Shown: piece after piece, positions 2,758 to 19,082 of the stretch
Position numbering within the stretch: position 1 is the stretch's first letter
Layout of the letters: each line of letters opens with the position of its first letter
DNA from: a virus
Direction: 5' to 3' (one strand)
Length of the DNA stretch: 26,281 nucleotides
IMG/VR virus record: IMGVR_UViG_3300006327_000006
Coordinates: 1-26,281 of that record
Position numbers and translations under genes: made by a program
The notes under the pieces: model-generated
Database searches by the model: none
What the model was told of the DNA's origin: nothing
The model's input: only the letters and a program-made list of their open reading frames with translations

Positions 2758-3786
2758 ATGAGTCATAGAATGACTGAAACAGATGCGGTGCACGCACGTT
2801 ATCGTGTGGAAGCATGGCACAAGTTAGGAAAGGTCGGACATATCGACTGGTTGGAAGCTCGTAATGCTTTTGATTGGTGTGAGGTTGAAAGATCTACATT
2901 ACATATAGAACATGGCGACGAGTTCTGGGATCTAGGTGACAGGCAACTGTTAAAGATGGTTCACTATGCTCATGCGTTTGCAGAGGTGAGCCCTCGATAT
3001 CAGATAGTGCAGCATCGGTTTATGATTGATGATCTCACTGGCATCTTGCTTGACACTGGACTAGTAGAAACTATTGAATCAGTGGGTACTTATGACAACG
3101 GTGCTGTTGGTTATGTGTCGTTGAAGTTTAAGGATGGGATTGAGATACCGGGCTGGTCCCATGTTGATTCAATCTTTAATCTTGGTAACGGACATGACAA
3201 GAATGTGCCGTTGATAGCTACTCAGTCTGCTACTGCTGTTGTGTGTGCTAACACATTTAAGTGGAACATCTTAGACAACGATGCGGTGTTTAGATTCCGC
3301 AAGGTTGGTAAGCCACAAGAGATGATGGAACAAGCAGTCAGAGAACTATGCAAAGGTTACGAACGACACAAGAGTTACGCTCAGACTATTGAACGGATGG
3401 CTAATCAAGAGTTTGTTGATGGCCAATGGGATCAGTTAGTTGTTGATCTGATTGGACACAAGCCATCGTTCAACCCAGAAGCACCGGCTTTCACAGATGG
3501 TAAACAAAATCATCAGGGTTATTACAACAAGATAACTCGATGGTCTAACAACAAAGACGATTTGAATGCAAGGTTCTATCGTGATGAAGATATAGCTGGC
3601 GTGCGTAACACTAAGTGGGGTGCGCTGATGGCTGTCCAAGCATGGGAACAGAAAGATAAACCCATGAAAGGTACAAGCAAATGGATCGCTGGCACAGGTG
3701 AACGTAACCGAAGACACCAAGCGAGCGTCATGTTCGGGAAGCTACCGATGACCGAGAAAGCTGCAAAGGAATTAGTAAATGCATAG
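2758..3786 (+). CDS. DUF932 / TIGR03299 phage-plasmid protein (342 aa)
   Basis: The start has AAAGGGA six bases upstream. The length and several motifs fit the DUF932/TIGR03299 phage-plasmid family: AWHKLG near residue 19, the central QSATAVVCANTFKWNILD, FRFRKVG, and NTKWGALMAVQAWEQ toward the C-terminus. Members are widespread on phages and plasmids, and their biochemical role is not established to my knowledge. A link to DNA metabolism is suggested only by the neighbouring recombination genes. The protein appears soluble and has no signal peptide. It overlaps the next gene by eight bases. A structured leader precedes it, so it may be separately regulated. Confidence 0.85.
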   Translation: MSHRMTETDAVHARYRVEAWHKLGKVGHIDWLEARNAFDWCEVERSTLHIEHGDEFWDLGDRQLLKMVHYAHAFAEVSPRYQIVQHRFMIDDLTGILLDTGLVETIESVGTYDNGAVGYVSLKFKDGIEIPGWSHVDSIFNLGNGHDKNVPLIATQSATAVVCANTFKWNILDNDAVFRFRKVGKPQEMMEQAVRELCKGYERHKSYAQTIERMANQEFVDGQWDQLVVDLIGHKPSFNPEAPAFTDGKQNHQGYYNKITRWSNNKDDLNARFYRDEDIAGVRNTKWGALMAVQAWEQKDKPMKGTSKWIAGTGERNRRHQASVMFGKLPMTEKAAKELVNA

Positions 3787-12586: not shown

Positions 12587-12996
12587 TATGTGCTCCCAAG
12601 AACGTCGTTAAGGGCACGTTCTTTGCGTTTCTTTTCTGACTTCGGCCCTTGAAGAAGCGTCCCGGCTTTAATTTCGTGAGAGGTTGCGGCTTCTCGTTCC
12701 ATTTTGGCAGCGCCGTCAATGTTCTTGGGCTGAATACCTTCAGATCGGAGGCGTTTGTAGGCTGCCATATCTCTTTCTTTGTCTCTTTCTTTAGCTTTAG
12801 ATCCAGACCAATCAATCGCCTTGCCATCGTGCATACCTCTCGTTGGTGTAGCTGACGCAGCAATGTGTACTTCACCGAAGTATTTGCGAATTACTCCTTT
12901 ACAGGCATCACAAACTCCATCGTAGGTTTCGTCAAACCCATGACGGATCTCATGGGTCAACCCACAATCAAGACATCGGTAACAATAAATTGGCAC
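12586..12996 (-). CDS. FmdB-type zinc ribbon protein (136 aa)
   Basis: It begins with GTG at 12996, overlapping the previous stop (TAGTG), with AGGACC upstream. The N-terminal 40 residues read PIYCYRCLDCGLTHEIRHGF then CDACKG: CxxC at 5/8 region and a second CxxC near residue 29, the FmdB/Zn-ribbon pattern. The C-terminal half is a charged, helical, low-complexity tail (SGSKAKERDKERDMAAYKRL). FmdB-like proteins are often found in phage structural or packaging regions with an unknown role; a regulatory name in databases comes from a single bacterial case. Located among tail genes. Confidence 0.8.
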   Translation of the reverse strand: MPIYCYRCLDCGLTHEIRHGFDETYDGVCDACKGVIRKYFGEVHIAASATPTRGMHDGKAIDWSGSKAKERDKERDMAAYKRLRSEGIQPKNIDGAAKMEREAATSHEIKAGTLLQGPKSEKKRKERALNDVLGST

Positions 12997-14045
12997 TATT
13001 CTGGTCCTACTCTAAATGAGTAACCGGCTCCTACGAGTACGGTTTCTTCTGATTGTGTTAAGTCACGGGGGCTTTCATGTCCACCATAAATCCAGCGAGT
13101 AACTGTTGCCCAGTCTGCTGGTAAATATGTTTGTACAGTCGAGCCATTAACTATAAATACATTACTGCCTTGTGCGCCGGGTGCGAAGTGACGCATAAGA
13201 GCGCGGGCTGCAGGTGTCGAAGCTTCTGGAACTCCTATACGTGGAAGTGTATTAGCCGTTGGCATAACGAGCAGCCGATAAACTTCTTTAGCTCCCATTG
13301 TGCTAGTCGCTGCAATGGTATCTACAACTGCTGTGTAATTACCGCTCGGTGTTTCCGATGGCATCGTTGCGGTAGCTGCGATGACTCCCGGTGTCGCATC
13401 GACAGTGATGTAGAGCGAGTGGCCGGGGAACGTCGCCGCAGTCGCCACCGTAGCCGGTGTAACGACCGCTGAGATGGTGGGTGTGGGGAGAGTAGCTGGA
13501 GCAGTGATGCCGCCGTGTACGCTGATTGAGTTGGCAGTAACTGAAGGTACAATTACTACCGGACAGGCGACTGTAGACGGAGTAACCGTCGCCGGGACCG
13601 ATACGCCTGCCGAGAACGTCGTCGTAACACCGATTGTGGCTGGCGTCGCAATGACCGTAACAGTAAAACCAGTATCAACAGGCTGGGAATAGCCAACACC
13701 CGACTGGCTGTAATCCACCAAGATACGGTTGTCTGGTACCGAGGTGTCACGTTCGTTGTAATCGAACCCGGTCTTGTTGTAGTCATAACCGCTTGAATAG
13801 CCTACGCCACCCGGACGTTTCGGTGTATAAACATATGCAAACGTAAGCGACAGATCCGCCGAACACGCAATCGTGCTGACGGATACAGTCGCATCACGTT
13901 TCTGATAAGGAAAGCCGGACTCCGCATAAGCGATTCCGCTTTCGTTGTAATCGTAGCTGCCCGGATATTTCGGGGCGTAGTCGAACCCCGGCTCTTGATA
14001 CTCAATCTCATCTTTGTTGTACGGATTGACGGCAGGGAGCGGCAC
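12996..14045 (-). CDS. Repeat-rich tail protein (349 aa)
   Basis: It begins with GTG at 14045, with GAGG seven bases upstream. Three zones are visible. The N-terminus carries repeats of the YxxxG[FIV]xY type (YNESGIAYAESGFPY, YNKTGFDYNERD, YSQSGVGYSQ). The middle is made of Thr/Val/Ala/Pro beta repeats with PATV or PATI motifs. The C-terminal 100 residues (ARALMRHFAPGAQGSNVFIV, then WIYGGHESPRDLTQSEE and GAGY) match a domain that I know from minor tail proteins of actinophages. The product is probably a long, fibrous tail or fibre protein. Base composition shows the same repeats at the DNA level. It follows the holin. Confidence 0.7.
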   Translation of the reverse strand: MPLPAVNPYNKDEIEYQEPGFDYAPKYPGSYDYNESGIAYAESGFPYQKRDATVSVSTIACSADLSLTFAYVYTPKRPGGVGYSSGYDYNKTGFDYNERDTSVPDNRILVDYSQSGVGYSQPVDTGFTVTVIATPATIGVTTTFSAGVSVPATVTPSTVACPVVIVPSVTANSISVHGGITAPATLPTPTISAVVTPATVATAATFPGHSLYITVDATPGVIAATATMPSETPSGNYTAVVDTIAATSTMGAKEVYRLLVMPTANTLPRIGVPEASTPAARALMRHFAPGAQGSNVFIVNGSTVQTYLPADWATVTRWIYGGHESPRDLTQSEETVLVGAGYSFRVGPE

Positions 14046-14062: not shown

Positions 14063-14266
14063 CTAGCTAGTAACCGATGCTGTTTCTGGATCTCCCACTT
14101 TTCTGGCAGCAACAGCCTTAGCAATAGCGATAAGCGCCGCAACTCCGGCGATCTTCAAGGAATCACCCCAGTCAGGTCCGGGTACAGCCATAGCTGCGGC
14201 CCATGCCTGAGCAAAGGTGGAGATTCCACGTTCCAAACTGTCTTTAATAAAACGCTGGTTGAACAA
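14063..14266 (-). CDS. r1t-like holin (67 aa)
   Basis: A TTG at 14266 is chosen because GGAGAC lies eight bases upstream. The longer reading from 14311 runs deeper into the amidase. The product starts FNQRFIKDSLERGISTFAQAW and has one weakly hydrophobic segment after this and a stronger one (LKIAGVAALIAIAKAVAARK, about residues 36-55). It ends in a short polar tail. ERGISTFAQ is typical of actinophage holins of the r1t group, which form membrane lesions and let the endolysin out. It overlaps the amidase by 23 bases. Confidence 0.75.
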   Translation of the reverse strand: MFNQRFIKDSLERGISTFAQAWAAAMAVPGPDWGDSLKIAGVAALIAIAKAVAARKVGDPETASVTS

Positions 14267-15056
14267 CTTCTTGTCTCCGTATCTGCATAGCCGCCCAAGT
14301 TTTTGGACCAACTACGCCATCTGCAACGAGCCCTTTGGTTCGCTGCCATTGTTTTACTTTGGCGAGTGTACCACGCCCGTATATTCCGTCGGCTAAAGCT
14401 CCTACTACTCGTTGAACATGGACAACTGCTTGGCTGCGTGAGCCTTTGCGTAGTGTTCCGGGGAACGGAACAAGTCCGTCCTCTGGTTCTTTAGGTAAAG
14501 TCATTGTTGGGACTGATGTAATCATGCGTCGATGAACCATTAAACGTAGTTCTGGCATAGAAAACGAGGGATCAACTTTGCGTGAAGTCCATTCCTTGTG
14601 GCCTATCACCGCACAGTCAGGGTTCCATTTGTGTCCGTCGCACAGAAAGGCGCACAAATCTACGAGTGCGTCCATCTGTGCCTCGGGTACATCTTCCCCT
14701 AACCCGTCATTAATAATTGAAACACCTATTAAACGAGAGTTGGCGCTGATCTTACCGGCGCTCGAAGCGTTACCCGTAACAGGATTATTCTGCTGCATTC
14801 GTGTCAACACTGACTGTAAGCCACGGCCAGCGTGGTTAGCTTTCACATTCTCAGCAGTCAACTTGACAATGGTGCCATCACGTTTTATGAGGTAGTTGTA
14901 TAGAGGTCCGGGTACCTTGTTCACTCCTCGAACACACATTGCGATCACGTTGTCGGGATCTGCGTTGCGGTTGGAGGCTGTGTGGTGGACGACTATGCCG
15001 AATGGTTTGAGTGGCCGACCGGTGTTGACTTTACCGGGTGCGTCTACGATATTCAT
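14244..15056 (-). CDS. N-acetylmuramoyl-L-alanine amidase endolysin with PG-binding domain
   Basis: The 270-residue product has an N-terminal amidase_2/PGRP domain: FGIVVHHTASN with zinc ligand H24/H25, YNYLIKRDGTIV, NHAGRG, GVSIIND, and IGHKEWTSRKVDPSF supplying H153 and D162. It cuts the amide bond between the sugar backbone and the stem peptide of peptidoglycan. The C-terminal part (about 201-257: LRKGSRSQAVVHVQRVVGAL, DGIYGRGT, DGVVGPKTWAAM) is a PG_binding_1-type domain. There is no signal peptide, so release depends on the holin that overlaps its end. The start overlaps the previous stop by four bases (ATGA). Confidence 0.95.
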   Translation of the reverse strand: MNIVDAPGKVNTGRPLKPFGIVVHHTASNRNADPDNVIAMCVRGVNKVPGPLYNYLIKRDGTIVKLTAENVKANHAGRGLQSVLTRMQQNNPVTGNASSAGKISANSRLIGVSIINDGLGEDVPEAQMDALVDLCAFLCDGHKWNPDCAVIGHKEWTSRKVDPSFSMPELRLMVHRRMITSVPTMTLPKEPEDGLVPFPGTLRKGSRSQAVVHVQRVVGALADGIYGRGTLAKVKQWQRTKGLVADGVVGPKTWAAMQIRRQEVVQPAFY

Positions 15057-15412
15057 TCTGGCTCAGGAGTAGGAGATAGCTCAAACCAATCTTCCATAAC
15101 ATCATCCCACTTCCAAGCGGTACCGCCTTCCTCACCAAACCCTTCAGGGTAAGGCTTATCGGCAGGAGGTTGCCAATCGTAGCTAGCGTCCAACACCCAT
15201 CCGTTGTGTGGAGATGGCCCATGAAATAAACCGAGAGGATAACCGTCTGCTGTTGGAACAAATGTTGAGCCGGGACCAGCTACGTTTTTGCGGATGTTGT
15301 CTGCGGTTTCATACCAACCAGACCACCCTAAATCGACTGGAGTAAGGCCATCTTCAAAGAGGGCGATATTAACAACAATGTTGTTTTCATCTACCTGCGC
15401 GAAAGTTCTCAT
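15053..15412 (-). CDS. Small tail-fibre-associated protein (119 aa)
   Basis: AAGG lies seven bases before the ATG. The N-terminus (MRTFAQVDENNIVVNIALFE), the centre (NIRKNVAGPGSTF) and the tryptophan-rich C-terminus (NGWVLDASYDWQPPADKPYP) match the layout of a small protein common in tail-fibre gene clusters of marine phages: FAQxDxNNxV, then NxRKNxAGxG, then a WxLxxxxxxWxxP segment. Its exact role is not known to me; it may be a fibre or adhesin accessory. It overlaps the amidase by four bases, so fibre and lysis genes are in one operon. Confidence 0.7.
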   Translation of the reverse strand: MRTFAQVDENNIVVNIALFEDGLTPVDLGWSGWYETADNIRKNVAGPGSTFVPTADGYPLGLFHGPSPHNGWVLDASYDWQPPADKPYPEGFGEEGGTAWKWDDVMEDWFELSPTPEPE

Positions 15413-15421
15413 CCAACAACC

Positions 15422-16429
15422 TTAAAGATCTTCAAACCTAAGTATCACTACACCATCTTGTGACGCTCCATGTCCTGCTCCGTCAAGCCAAGCAGCACCT
15501 TTACCCCAACTAGAATAACTATGAGAATCAGACGTTGGATTTAGATACTGGCCCCGACCGTCACCCGATCCATAAAAAGCATTGGTCGTAGTAGAAACTG
15601 ACCCGTTTTTGGCGTAACCATAGTTTTGCCAACGTATACCTTGGCCACCCCAACCACTACCTGTGCCCGGCATATTCTGGCCTTTACGACTATTTTGTGT
15701 GTCGTAACCACCGCCAGAACCACCGCCAGCGCCGCCACCAGCATCCCACATTTCGCCCCCAGCACCGTTGCCACCTATACCAGCAGAAGAATCTTCGTTA
15801 GGCCACCATGTGCCACTAGCCGGTGTGCCATCATACTTACCAGAAGCACCAGCACCACCGCTACTACCGCAATAGGTGTACCACCTACCGCCGCCGCCGC
15901 CCCCGCCACCAGAAGCTCGGGTAATCGAACCCCAACTTCCACCGGGAGCAGTAAGCGCAGGAGCATCAGTCCCAGTTGAACAATAAGCCCAGCCACCCAT
16001 GCCGCCTCGACCACCGCCACCAGCAACGACATCCACACCATTCATAGTGAACCCAGTTTGACCACCATTAGTACCTGATTGGCCGCCGCCTGACACTGGC
16101 CACGTGCCTTTCGCACCAATAGTTACAGAAATAGTTTCAGCGACAACCTCAAAGCCAGTTACTTGAACAACACCACCACCGCCACCGCCCCCATTCTCGT
16201 TATTAGTGCTAGAACCAACGTCGTAGCCGCCGCCACCGCCGACAACAACCATGTCGATAGTGCCGTCACCAGTAAATTCTAAACTGCCGGAAGTAGTTAG
16301 CTCAACAAAGGTATAACCCGTGCTGTTCCAATTAGTGTATTCGTTTTTAGAACCAGAATACTCATAACCAAAACCACCGCCTGCTCCGGCGGCTCCCATC
16401 ATTGCGGCTTTACTCGATCCAAACGGCAT
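15422..16429 (-). CDS. Glycine-rich adhesin-like tail protein (335 aa)
   Basis: GAGG precedes the ATG. The product is strongly glycine-rich (runs of five to eight Gly) in many loops, with short beta strands such as TIDMVVVGGGGG and ISVTIGAKGTW and a C-terminal VVILRFEDL. The fold resembles the glycine-rich domain of phage adhesins, where glycine helices form a flat sandwich that presents variable loops for receptor binding. The first 19 residues (MPFGSSKAAMMGAAGAGGG) resemble those of the protein coded at 17821-18420. This suggests a common attachment module. It is the likely receptor-binding tip or a fibre component. Confidence 0.75.
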   Translation of the reverse strand: MPFGSSKAAMMGAAGAGGGFGYEYSGSKNEYTNWNSTGYTFVELTTSGSLEFTGDGTIDMVVVGGGGGYDVGSSTNNENGGGGGGGVVQVTGFEVVAETISVTIGAKGTWPVSGGGQSGTNGGQTGFTMNGVDVVAGGGGRGGMGGWAYCSTGTDAPALTAPGGSWGSITRASGGGGGGGGRWYTYCGSSGGAGASGKYDGTPASGTWWPNEDSSAGIGGNGAGGEMWDAGGGAGGGSGGGYDTQNSRKGQNMPGTGSGWGGQGIRWQNYGYAKNGSVSTTTNAFYGSGDGRGQYLNPTSDSHSYSSWGKGAAWLDGAGHGASQDGVVILRFEDL

Positions 16430-16437
16430 AACAATCC

Positions 16438-16668
16438 TCAGCTAGTGAGCGCAGCGATCTCGTCGTCAGTTAAACCAAGATCTTTAAGTTTGGCATTACC
16501 TGACGCTTTATCCGCAGCAGCTTTCTCAGCCGCAGCTTCTTGTGCAGCGACCTCCTCTTTGTGACGAGCAGCTTGTGCTTCAGCTTCAGCGATTTCTTCT
16601 GCGGTATAAGGAACAAGTCGTTCCTCGCCCGTAGAACAATCAACTATCAATCTATTCATTGCCGACAT
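16438..16668 (-). CDS. Small Ala/Glu-rich helical protein (76 aa)
   Basis: The ATG overlaps the previous stop by one base (TAATG). A second Met (residue 4, MNRLIVDCSTGEERLVPYTA) could also start it. The N-terminus has a beta pair containing DCSTGEERLVPYT. It is followed by a long Ala/Glu/Lys helix (EEIAEAEAQAARHKEEVAAQ and on), then LKDLGLTDDEIAAL. This NCxTGEExxxxxTxEE pattern is typical of small proteins next to phage tail-fibre genes, probably a fibre or tail accessory or assembly factor. It lies between two fibre-like genes. Confidence 0.65.
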   Translation of the reverse strand: MSAMNRLIVDCSTGEERLVPYTAEEIAEAEAQAARHKEEVAAQEAAAEKAAADKASGNAKLKDLGLTDDEIAALTS

Positions 16669-17276
16669 TAGGCAACCTCATTCCGTAATCCGTAAAGCCA
16701 AAACCTTGAACCGTCACCCCAATAAGCACCGCTAGATGGCACTAAATCAATTTCGTAAACATTAACCGTACCTCCGGTTACATCCATCGCACCAGCACTA
16801 GCGCTTCCTCGATTCTTACTGGTGCTGCTGTAGTTAGAGCCAAAAGGAGTTGCAGACATAGACCAATAATTCACTACATCACCACGGTCAGAGCTTGCAC
16901 CTCCGTAGCAACCATAGATATCACAGAATCCGCTACCCCAATACCCCAAATTGTATGTGCTACGACCATGAATCAGATTACCTTTGAACCCGGCGTAGTT
17001 ACTTCGTTGCTGGTTGTTGTTGGTATCTTGGCTTGCGTTATTAGCCGGTGACCAAAACCATTGAGAATAATAGTAGTTACTTGTGACGTTGTTGATATAA
17101 ATTATCATGTCATCTTGATAATCGTAATGGTCAGCGTACCCTGACCACATCAGACGAAGAACGTCATAATTAGTACCAGAACTAGACGTTGAAGAAGGCT
17201 GAATCGAAGTAAATGCGACACCGGTAGTCGTAGTATCTGTAACTGATGCTTCTGCTATCGCTACCCAGTTGCTCAT
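16668..17276 (-). CDS. Fibre-like protein C of a three-gene paralog set (202 aa)
   Basis: The start at 17276 overlaps the previous stop (TAATG); a longer in-frame start at 17312 lies inside that gene. The product begins MSNWVAIAEASVTDTTTTGV, has strands such as YDVLRLMWSG and DDMIIYINNV, and ends GDGSRFWLYGLRNEVA. The plan of strand, loop with aromatic residues, and closing GSxFxLYGL is shared with the next two genes upstream. This is the pattern of jelly-roll-like sugar-binding or receptor-binding domains of marine phage fibres; that reading is inference. The middle is rich in Tyr, Asn, Ser and Gly, as expected of exposed loops. Confidence 0.65.
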   Translation of the reverse strand: MSNWVAIAEASVTDTTTTGVAFTSIQPSSTSSSGTNYDVLRLMWSGYADHYDYQDDMIIYINNVTSNYYYSQWFWSPANNASQDTNNNQQRSNYAGFKGNLIHGRSTYNLGYWGSGFCDIYGCYGGASSDRGDVVNYWSMSATPFGSNYSSTSKNRGSASAGAMDVTGGTVNVYEIDLVPSSGAYWGDGSRFWLYGLRNEVA

Positions 17277-17824
17277 TATGGTGCTCCCCATCCAAATACA
17301 CGCAAAGTGCAACCAGTTTGCATATTATTTCCGTTCATATTGATACTGATTTTGTTTATAGCTTCAGTCCACGGGAAACTACCTGCACCTACAACCATCG
17401 TATCCCCTCCACTCGACGTGCTTGTTTCATCTATAGTGCCGCCGTATGAAGTCCAAGACTTTTTATTCGCTGTGTCCGTGTAATCATAAACATCTAATAT
17501 TGTTATGCCTTGCACATCGTATGGACTGACACCGTTGTTGTAACCAAAATAAAACTGGTCAGCAGATCCCTCATTACCAGTAGTCCACGGATAAGCACCA
17601 GAAGTTCCACTAGCTATCATCAAACCAAATTGATAAATATCTTCGCCAGCGCCGCCGCCCTTATCGTTAAAACGACCAGTCCAATAAGTGGGATTACTTG
17701 AATGGTATCCGGGGCCAGCAATAATACATTGCAAATGCTTATAAGTGTCCGGAATATTTTCAACCTCTAACGAAGTAGTGGTGTCGTTAGGGGCCTGAGC
17801 TTCACCAATTAATTCGTAAGTCAC
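17276..17824 (-). CDS. Fibre-like protein B of the paralog set (182 aa)
   Basis: The start is GTG at 17824, which overlaps the upstream stop (GTGA) and has GGGGGA five bases before it; the longer reading from 17845 has no better site. The product begins VTYELIGEAQAPNDTTTSLE, contains YKHLQCIIAGPG, TYWTGRFND and DVQGITILDVYDYTD, and ends ISINMNGNNMQTGCTLRVFGWGAP. It shares the plan of proteins A (17821-18420) and C (16668-17276): an opening strand pair, a conserved GPG/YxxL turn, a loop core, and a closing strand with FG(W/L)G. It is probably a structural fibre or decoration protein of receptor-binding type. Confidence 0.65.
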   Translation of the reverse strand: MTYELIGEAQAPNDTTTSLEVENIPDTYKHLQCIIAGPGYHSSNPTYWTGRFNDKGGGAGEDIYQFGLMIASGTSGAYPWTTGNEGSADQFYFGYNNGVSPYDVQGITILDVYDYTDTANKKSWTSYGGTIDETSTSSGGDTMVVGAGSFPWTEAINKISINMNGNNMQTGCTLRVFGWGAP

Positions 17825-18420
17825 TTTGTTCCCCCAAGCCCACACAACGTAAAGTGCGAACCGGCATACCAGTTATTACTAGAGGTTTCGTTAGCAATAG
17901 AAATAGTGGTACCCGATGTGTTGCCGCTGCTACCTATAGCAGAACTTATAAAATAGGCGTAAGCGTTATCTGCGGCTGAAGCGTTTATTCCCATAGCGCC
18001 CCTATTGAAATTATCGTCTTGCCAATTGGGGAACCATATCCATCCCCCAGAAGATTGGGCGTACCAACTTGCAGATGTGGACCCACCCCCACCTGCAACA
18101 ATGTCGCTGTTGTATGAATACTCATAAAAACTGCTCGTATTCACCCCAGCACCCCAGCTATGGGTAGAAAAATTAGTCTCTGTGCCGTGGCTAGTACCGG
18201 AATACAACAACTCATTCCAGTTATTCGTACCACTAACCCCTACCGCAAAAAATTGCAATACAAGAGTCCGATAGCTACTCGCAATCGAATCAACATTTGT
18301 AAAACTAACTTTTTGTGTATCCGTTGAAAGTGTCGTTGTATACAGAACATCTAGTGTTCCACCGCCGCCACTTGAACCGGCGGCACCAAGTAAAGCTACC
18401 TTACCGGCCCCAAATGGCAT
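17821..18420 (-). CDS. Fibre-like protein A with MPFG anchor (199 aa)
   Basis: The ATG at 18420 overlaps the previous stop (TAATG); a longer reading from 18552 is an out-of-frame extension into that gene and is rejected. The first 20 residues (MPFGAGKVALLGAAGSSGGG) resemble those of the glycine-rich protein. The rest begins LDVLYTTTLSTDTQKVSFTN, includes SYRTLVLQFFAVGVSGTNNW, and ends AGSHFTLCGLGGTK, the plan shared with proteins B and C. The Ser/Asn/Gly/Trp-rich middle suggests exposed binding loops. It is the first of three tandem paralogs. Confidence 0.65.
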   Translation of the reverse strand: MPFGAGKVALLGAAGSSGGGGTLDVLYTTTLSTDTQKVSFTNVDSIASSYRTLVLQFFAVGVSGTNNWNELLYSGTSHGTETNFSTHSWGAGVNTSSFYEYSYNSDIVAGGGGSTSASWYAQSSGGWIWFPNWQDDNFNRGAMGINASAADNAYAYFISSAIGSSGNTSGTTISIANETSSNNWYAGSHFTLCGLGGTK

Positions 18421-19082
18421 TACGCCATTGCCGCCCCAGCGACAAACCCATACCAAGTAGGAGCAGCACCGCCATCGAAAGTGATGAACGTAAGAATATC
18501 GACACCCGTAGTCGCAGTAGTCGTCAACGTCGGAGCAGTAGCCGCAGCCCACTTAACACTAGTAAACGCACCAGTACGAGAACCCGAAGCATCCTGCGTA
18601 AGAATCAATGTCAACGCAGTACCAGCCTGCAACCCAGCACCCGAAGGCATCGTAAACGTACAGTTACCTGTCATCGTCCACGTCTGAGTGTTGCCGTTAG
18701 TTTCATCGAGAGTAACTGCGGTACTTGTGTCCCCACCGGCATACACCGTTTCGGCATAATCCTTGTGAACTACTGCCGACATGATCTGATCTGCACCAAC
18801 AACCGTGCCAGAAAGAGTTGCACCAGCAATCGTTGAGCCCGTCAGCGTACTAGACCATGCTGTGGTACCCGTACCGGTGTGCTCCAAAAAGGCGTTCGTT
18901 GCTGCTGAAGCAGCAGGCGAAGCGCTAATACCAAGTTTTGTTTCTACAGCAATCAAAGCAGTAGAAGCTGCACCATGAACTTGATCGTGTTCGTACCCTG
19001 ACGCATCCAAGTCAGTTGTTGAGCTTGGAGTTACCTGTGTTGAGGTTGTGTCAAGAGATGTTGGATAGTTTGACGTTGGCAT
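18420..19082 (-). CDS. Fibre-type tail protein (220 aa)
   Basis: GGAG lies five bases before the ATG. The N-terminus (NYPTSLDTTSTQVTPSSTTD then HDQVHGAASTALIAVETKLG) is a pattern familiar from tail fibre and tail-attachment proteins of many phages: NYPTSLD, then VH, then AIxAVExKLG, probably a helix that forms a trimer. A threonine/alanine-rich beta region follows, with GNTQTWTMTGNCTFTMPSGA and TLILTQDASGSRTGAFTSV, and a domain ending ILTFITFDGGAAPTWYGFVAG. It probably links the tail to the fibre proteins coded by the next genes. Confidence 0.7.
   Translation of the reverse strand: MPTSNYPTSLDTTSTQVTPSSTTDLDASGYEHDQVHGAASTALIAVETKLGISASPAASAATNAFLEHTGTGTTAWSSTLTGSTIAGATLSGTVVGADQIMSAVVHKDYAETVYAGGDTSTAVTLDETNGNTQTWTMTGNCTFTMPSGAGLQAGTALTLILTQDASGSRTGAFTSVKWAAATAPTLTTTATTGVDILTFITFDGGAAPTWYGFVAGAAMA

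Follow-up and report, generated by a model that had tools for sequence, protein, structure and literature searches.

Why should a phage fibre region carry three adjacent genes of very different sequence, followed by a glycine-rich adhesin that opens with the same short peptide as the first of the three? Such a region lies on the minus strand of the IMG/VR virus record IMGVR_UViG_3300006327_000006, all of which (positions 1 to 26,281; 26,281 bases, hereafter the window) was analysed here with open reading frames called by a simple procedure; the relatives used for comparison were likewise virus records, i.e., genome fragments. Our data suggest that the region is a cassette with two docking slots, and that the three proteins (A, B, and C) assemble into a single heterotrimeric head occupying the first slot, a reading to which we assign a probability of roughly 55%. 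The features on which this reading depends are as follows (aa, amino acids; S family, the family formed by A, B, C, and their relatives).

18420..19082, minus strand: fibre stem protein, 220 aa, with a C-terminal ...TWYGFVAG domain (phrog_7760 tail fiber, E 9.8e-7)
18376..18420, minus strand: slot 1 leader MPFGAGKVALLGAAG, proposed docking peptide (matches to two patterns in 57 and 55 viral loci, partly shared)
17821..18420, minus strand: protein A, 199 aa, leader plus S-family beta-sandwich, gene 1 of the trio (profile matches; all-beta AlphaFold2 model)
17276..17824, minus strand: protein B, 182 aa from a GTG start, S family, without leader (E 7.2e-24, own-type-excluded profile)
16668..17276, minus strand: protein C, 202 aa, S family, without leader (E 1.7e-23, own-type-excluded profile)
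16438..16668, minus strand: small gene behind the trio, 76 aa, proposed fibre assembly chaperone (PF16778 protein at the equivalent place in some relatives)
16385..16429, minus strand: slot 2 leader MPFGSSKAAMMGAAG (pattern match)
15422..16429, minus strand: glycine-rich adhesin, 335 aa, slot 2 head (PF21722 in 21/28 family members; likeness to Pam3 and Bxb1)
15053..15412, minus strand: 119-aa protein behind slot 2 (phrog_7759, E 8e-11; equivalent place in relatives)
14244..15056, minus strand: amidase with a peptidoglycan-binding domain (lysin), the conserved right border of the cassette (PF01510, E 3.1e-24; PF01471, E 5.7e-12)

The initial annotation, made from the sequence of the window, gave lengths and coordinates for A, B, and C that agree with the open reading frames. 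The cassette is wider than the A-B-C and glycine-rich genes it described, adding the upstream stem, the 76-aa gene, and the downstream 119-aa gene. Its statement that all genes overlap by 1-4 bases holds from the stem through A, B, and C to the small gene (overlaps of 1, 4, 1, and 1 bases) but not for the glycine-rich gene, which is separated by 8 bases from the small gene and by 9 bases from the gene that follows.

Profile comparison indicates that A, B, and C are homologous over their full length. Each matched a profile of the family from which its own type had been excluded (E 7.6e-11, 7.2e-24, and 1.7e-23, respectively), compared with a best E of 0.12 among 300 shuffled sequences searched against such profiles. 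The profiles of the three trio positions aligned full-length with hhalign probabilities of 99.3-99.7%, versus <1% against glycine-rich or propeller-like heads. This homology is invisible from the window alone, in which pairwise alignments of the three gave z values of 0.5, -0.1, and 1.2. The proposal that they are paralogs with divergent loops is thus supported by the profile-profile and own-type-excluded matches, and unrelated folds did not emerge to contradict it: by profile the three form one family, of which A alone among them was folded.

The AlphaFold2 model of A is an all-beta sandwich (mean local confidence, pLDDT, 74; predicted TM-score, pTM, 0.74). Against the PDB this fold had no match at E <0.001, with only weak lectin or jelly-roll matches, and against predicted viral proteins it had 100 matches at E <=0.001 (best 1.5e-12), including several longer chains that carry fibre-like annotations. 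Among 117 S-family members we found no convincing Pfam match, no collar domain PF07484, and no NCBIfam model, and 24 of the 117 matched phrog_14820, a family of unknown function. A C1q/TNF-like domain was not recognised, with no Pfam match and PDB fold matches that were weak (E >=0.011, with the TNF-like BC2L-C lectin at 0.035). Position and fold together make it very likely that the S family is part of the host-holding apparatus.

The shared N-terminus that the initial annotation had noted (MPFG...GAAG) is present in A, which starts MPFGAGKVALLGAAGSSGGG, and in the glycine-rich protein, which starts MPFGSSKAAMMGAAGAGGG; B and C lack it. These two leaders were the only pattern matches in the window record, and reversed-pattern controls gave 0. 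Elsewhere, MPFGxxKxxxxGAAG matched 57 IMG/VR stretches and MPLGAFKxxxxG matched 55 IMG/VR loci, on contigs partly shared between the two sets, yielding a collection of 129 leader genes from roughly 95 viral loci. The leader has the shape MP[FL]GxxKxx[LMVI][LMF]G[AST][AGS]G followed by a glycine linker (~15 residues), and M1, P2, G4, K7, and G12 were invariant over 103 distinct leaders, some of these positions being preset by the search patterns. Leader genes carry three unrelated classes of head: the S trio, glycine-rich proteins, and proteins of ~480-560 aa that are possibly propeller-like (faint matches to beta-propeller repeats). Absence of the motif from other phages, which would have counted against the initial annotation, was thus not observed: the motif is widespread, on different heads. 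Slot 1 leaders sit behind a stem ending WYGFxAG or a close variant, slot 2 leaders behind a small gene, and leaders differ by slot and stem class. We propose that the leader is a docking peptide for heads.

Four leader matches came from cellular genomes. In three (L063, L064, and L066) the pattern falls by chance in an unrelated protein, and these were discarded; the fourth, on a 4.6-kb contig of an Anaerolineales metagenome-assembled genome (L065), is a true cassette, though too weak a basis for host assignment. A related layout occurs in Roseobacter phage CRP-9 gp45-gp43 (L068:5563-8903), with a WYGFTAG-ending stem, then a 649-aa protein starting MATKKKLLQAAAGSAGG, then a chaperone-like gene; this is perhaps a second leader family in a cultured phage.

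If A, B, and C are one family, how many of them make a head? We counted runs of neighbouring S genes, 87 of them complete and distinct; among pelagiphage-type loci, 80 were retrieved out of 344 found. Run length was three in 78 cases, six in one, and one in eight, and zero runs of 2, 4, or 5 occurred. Seven of the eight single genes encode chains of 230-253 aa with a stem-like start ([ML][AS]YIG..P) and the S domain at the C-terminus. Since S is found either as a single domain fused to a stem or as three unfused proteins, we take as the simplest view that a tip needs three S domains, which would be supplied in the fused form by three copies of one chain and in the split form by one each of A, B, and C. 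The run of six (L129, 2072 onward), on a pelagiphage-type contig, is a canonical trio and a diverged trio in tandem. These 78 trios are not 78 independent events; a better count is the 15 types beyond the pelagiphage type in which the trio is kept, in lineages with quite different neighbouring genes.

The trio also appears to move as one unit. Its members are co-inherited (Mantel r 0.92-0.94, with 0/2000 permutations as high and one discordant pair). The A/B/C tree, in which long branches are numerous, served solely for the co-inherited sets. Where a trio has a leader, it is on gene 1 only (38/38 trios). The initial picture of three heads swapped singly is therefore not supported: the leader is missing from both B and C, and the trio is inherited as one set. 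Within the pelagiphage type, position in the trio was assigned correctly for 174/177 proteins. A single ancient triplication with fixed positions was not borne out between types, where proteins from the same position (z 4.10) resemble each other no more than proteins from different positions (z 3.95).

Cultured phages carry the trio too: HTVC010P gp30-32, HTVC019P gp45-47, and HTVC034P gp37-35, in pelagiphages, are S trios annotated as hypothetical proteins, the label under which S proteins stand in cultured SAR11 phages. These matches were reached only through the pelagiphage-like part of the family; no direct match in cultured phages was found for A, for the glycine-rich protein, or for two relatives, in BLAST searches whose low-complexity filter may mask glycine-rich proteins.

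The same genes could instead encode three separate homotrimeric fibres, presenting three tips that broaden host range, in which case B and C would be anchored in some other way. Single-chain fusions of stem and S exist and are expected to be homotrimeric, the Pam3 fibre, whose structure has been solved, is homotrimeric (PMC9608196), and the window's A, B, and C have diverged strongly, all of which would suit this account. However, B and C have neither leader nor stem, the missing run lengths of 2, 4, and 5 would be unexpected, and the three genes travel together, single members being hardly ever exchanged; we consider three homotrimers unlikely, albeit the rival to be taken most seriously. Several observations weigh against a heterotrimer docked by one leader. 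Three separate homotrimers would yield an identical gene order; one lone stand-alone S gene exists, in Pelagibacter phage Lederberg EXVC029P; and 59 of the trios are of the pelagiphage type, so that their threes may largely reflect common descent. In pelagiphage trios, moreover, each protein has its own N-terminal extension, and the single gene-1 leader is thus not universal. The leader itself was modelled with low confidence (pLDDT ~50) in the AlphaFold2 prediction of A.

Comparison across relatives indicates that heads are exchanged at the leader, as the initial annotation had anticipated for the leader/head junction. In at least five cases, two or three different leaders precede one and the same S head (L041/L049/L077, L042/L050/L085, L023/L070, L009/L031, and L007/window), and one leader also occurs with different heads. 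One and the same propeller-like or glycine-rich head can occupy different slots in different phages, with the local leader each time (L032 slot 2 versus L083 slot 1, 87% DNA identity; L034 slot 1 versus L053 slot 2, 88% DNA identity). The same trio type is accompanied in slot 2 by a glycine-rich head in some relatives and by a propeller-like one in others (L043 and L056 versus L046), so the slots vary independently. These cases favour the broader view of a modular, swappable, and probably host-binding system. A third layout of the modules was seen in L092, L106, and L109, each of which has two complete cassettes of a glycine-rich gene plus an S trio.

Could the leader be a mere recombination hotspot, a short stretch of DNA homology that aids swaps, and not a docking peptide? 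For the MPFGAGK leader, 45 bases are identical in 13/13 pairs with unrelated heads, compared with 58% identity in the head and 86% upstream, as a hotspot would predict. Leader conservation was nevertheless rejected as general proof of a recombination anchor, given that MPFGAGK (1.00 versus 0.86 upstream) is offset by MPFGVEK (0.90 versus 0.97). Leaders that differ by slot and stem class argue against a hotspot, as do the five invariant residues (partly set by the search pattern), which persist even where pairs sharing a head but not a leader have leader DNA of just 58-87% identity. Since these residues are retained despite divergent DNA, selection seems to act on the peptide, and a role as hotspot alone is improbable; the two roles can coexist. 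Variation of the A/B/C loops by a diversity-generating retroelement, which the extreme loop variation between relatives might suggest, is scarcely credible given that heads differ along the whole domain rather than in one variable stretch and that no reverse transcriptase (RVT_1) was detected in the window record and six relatives, which are incomplete records, with control genomes positive.

We therefore return to the two-slot cassette with its A-B-C head. In this host-recognition region, the ~15-residue leader and glycine linker would fix a head to the virion in each slot, the anchor probably being the stem protein encoded directly upstream of slot 1, and heads would be exchanged between phages by recombination beside the leader. 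A, B, and C would assemble 1:1:1 and dock via the single leader of A, and slot 2 would hold the glycine-rich adhesin, probably as a homotrimer like Pam3 gp24. The window glycine-rich protein scored 17.4 bits against PF21722 (Gly_rich_2; cut-off 24.3), a domain matched by 21/28 members of its family at E <=0.001 (best 1.1e-18), and a search with the profile of that family recovers the Pam3 tail fibre (E 7.4e-4). Foldseek matched its model to the Bxb1 tail tip (E 7.7e-4, probability 1.00) and the Pam3 fibre (probability 0.96), with low TM-scores (0.31-0.42) and a tip modelled with low confidence.

The small gene behind each head probably encodes a folding chaperone. At the place behind the trio, L032 has a protein matching PF16778 (Phage_tail_APC, E 1.2e-14) and phrog_4912 (tail fiber assembly), HTVC010P has a PF16778 tail fibre assembly gene, and similar genes are present in HTVC019P and HTVC034P. 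The 76-aa protein of the window had no PF16778 match and only phrog_21239 at 0.0048. The 119-aa protein, with no sequence match in the PDB, may, judging by its position, take part in assembling the slot 2 head.

The major capsid protein of the window phage is 37-38% identical to those of Streptomyces phages Manuel and Immanuel3 (Beephvirinae), with which it also shares the order of several structural genes. Beephvirinae-like phages are short-tailed. The window phage is probably a distant, short-tailed relative of the Streptomyces Beephvirinae, and an actinobacterial host is possible. Beyond the cassette, a 349-aa protein (window 12996-14045) has N-terminal tandem tyrosine-rich repeats (NPYNKDEIEYQEPGFDYAPKYPGSYDYNESGIAYAESGF) and no convincing family match, and no tRNA genes were found in the window. 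In L017, of the single-slot MPFGVEK lineage, two proteins of ~203 and 213 aa (2387-2998 and 2982-3623, reverse complement of the locus) that by eye resemble 2OG-Fe(II) oxygenases lie between the post-head gene and the amidase.

The fibre region of Manuel and Immanuel3 has a 421-aa 'minor tail protein' among other genes, and nothing in it matched the leader cassette. HTVC010P, HTVC019P, and HTVC034P share the S trio followed by a tail fibre assembly-like gene, but theirs has no MPFG leader and they are otherwise different phages; marine host-recognition islands with tail fibre and C1q-like genes have been reported near HTVC010P relatives (PMC3909814).

Short docking peptides are known from Klebsiella phages KP32 and KP34, coliphages K1E, K1-5, and SP6, and G7C, in which a second receptor-binding protein, subject to horizontal exchange, is held on an anchor protein by a conserved N-terminal peptide of 7-29 residues (PMC6872550). 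The window system is alike in placing a short conserved N-terminal peptide on otherwise unrelated, variable heads. It differs in the peptide itself, in having two leader-bearing slots, and in its heads (S trio, glycine-rich, or propeller-like), whereas theirs are depolymerase tailspikes. A T4gp10-like docking domain was not detected in the stem (18420-19082), which in searches of sequence libraries matched only PHROG tail fiber families and no Pfam or NCBIfam model. In cyanophage Pam3, gp24 (PDB 7ypx, 7yfw) is built from a docking domain at the N-terminus, a TNF-like domain, and a glycine-rich tip that binds the receptor, and its trimer is assembled with chaperone gp25 (PMC9608196). The slot 2 head resembles it in the glycine-rich tip, by profile and fold, and Pam3 has its dedicated chaperone gene adjoining; Pam3, however, docks by a helical N-terminal domain, and the slot 2 head, as proposed, by the ~15-residue leader.

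The closest parallel for the trio is virophage DSLV2, in which the products of three consecutive related fibre-tip genes co-purify as a 1:1:1 heterotrimer (PMC12724248). Both have three consecutive paralogous genes; DSLV2 proteins carry the T4 gp37 collar domain PF07484, and they come from a virophage rather than a tailed phage. Were the trio heterotrimeric, a single head could display three distinct surfaces rather than one surface in triplicate; such a design, serving host range and escape, is scarcely known apart from a virophage. We regard it as an even bet that abundant tailed phages of the ocean have an obligate heterotrimeric receptor-binding head built from three tandem, unnamed beta-sandwich paralogs, the three being kept across lineages and, in the window's lineage, swapped whole on one single-chain docking peptide. 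Through its sequence, the leader offers an easy way to locate receptor-binding heads in viromes and to follow their exchange. Peptide-docked, exchanged heads and a three-gene heterotrimeric fibre were each known already, separately; within the range of our searches, what is new is the occurrence of S proteins as unfused trios in marine phages, a leader system with two slots, and the link between these two features.

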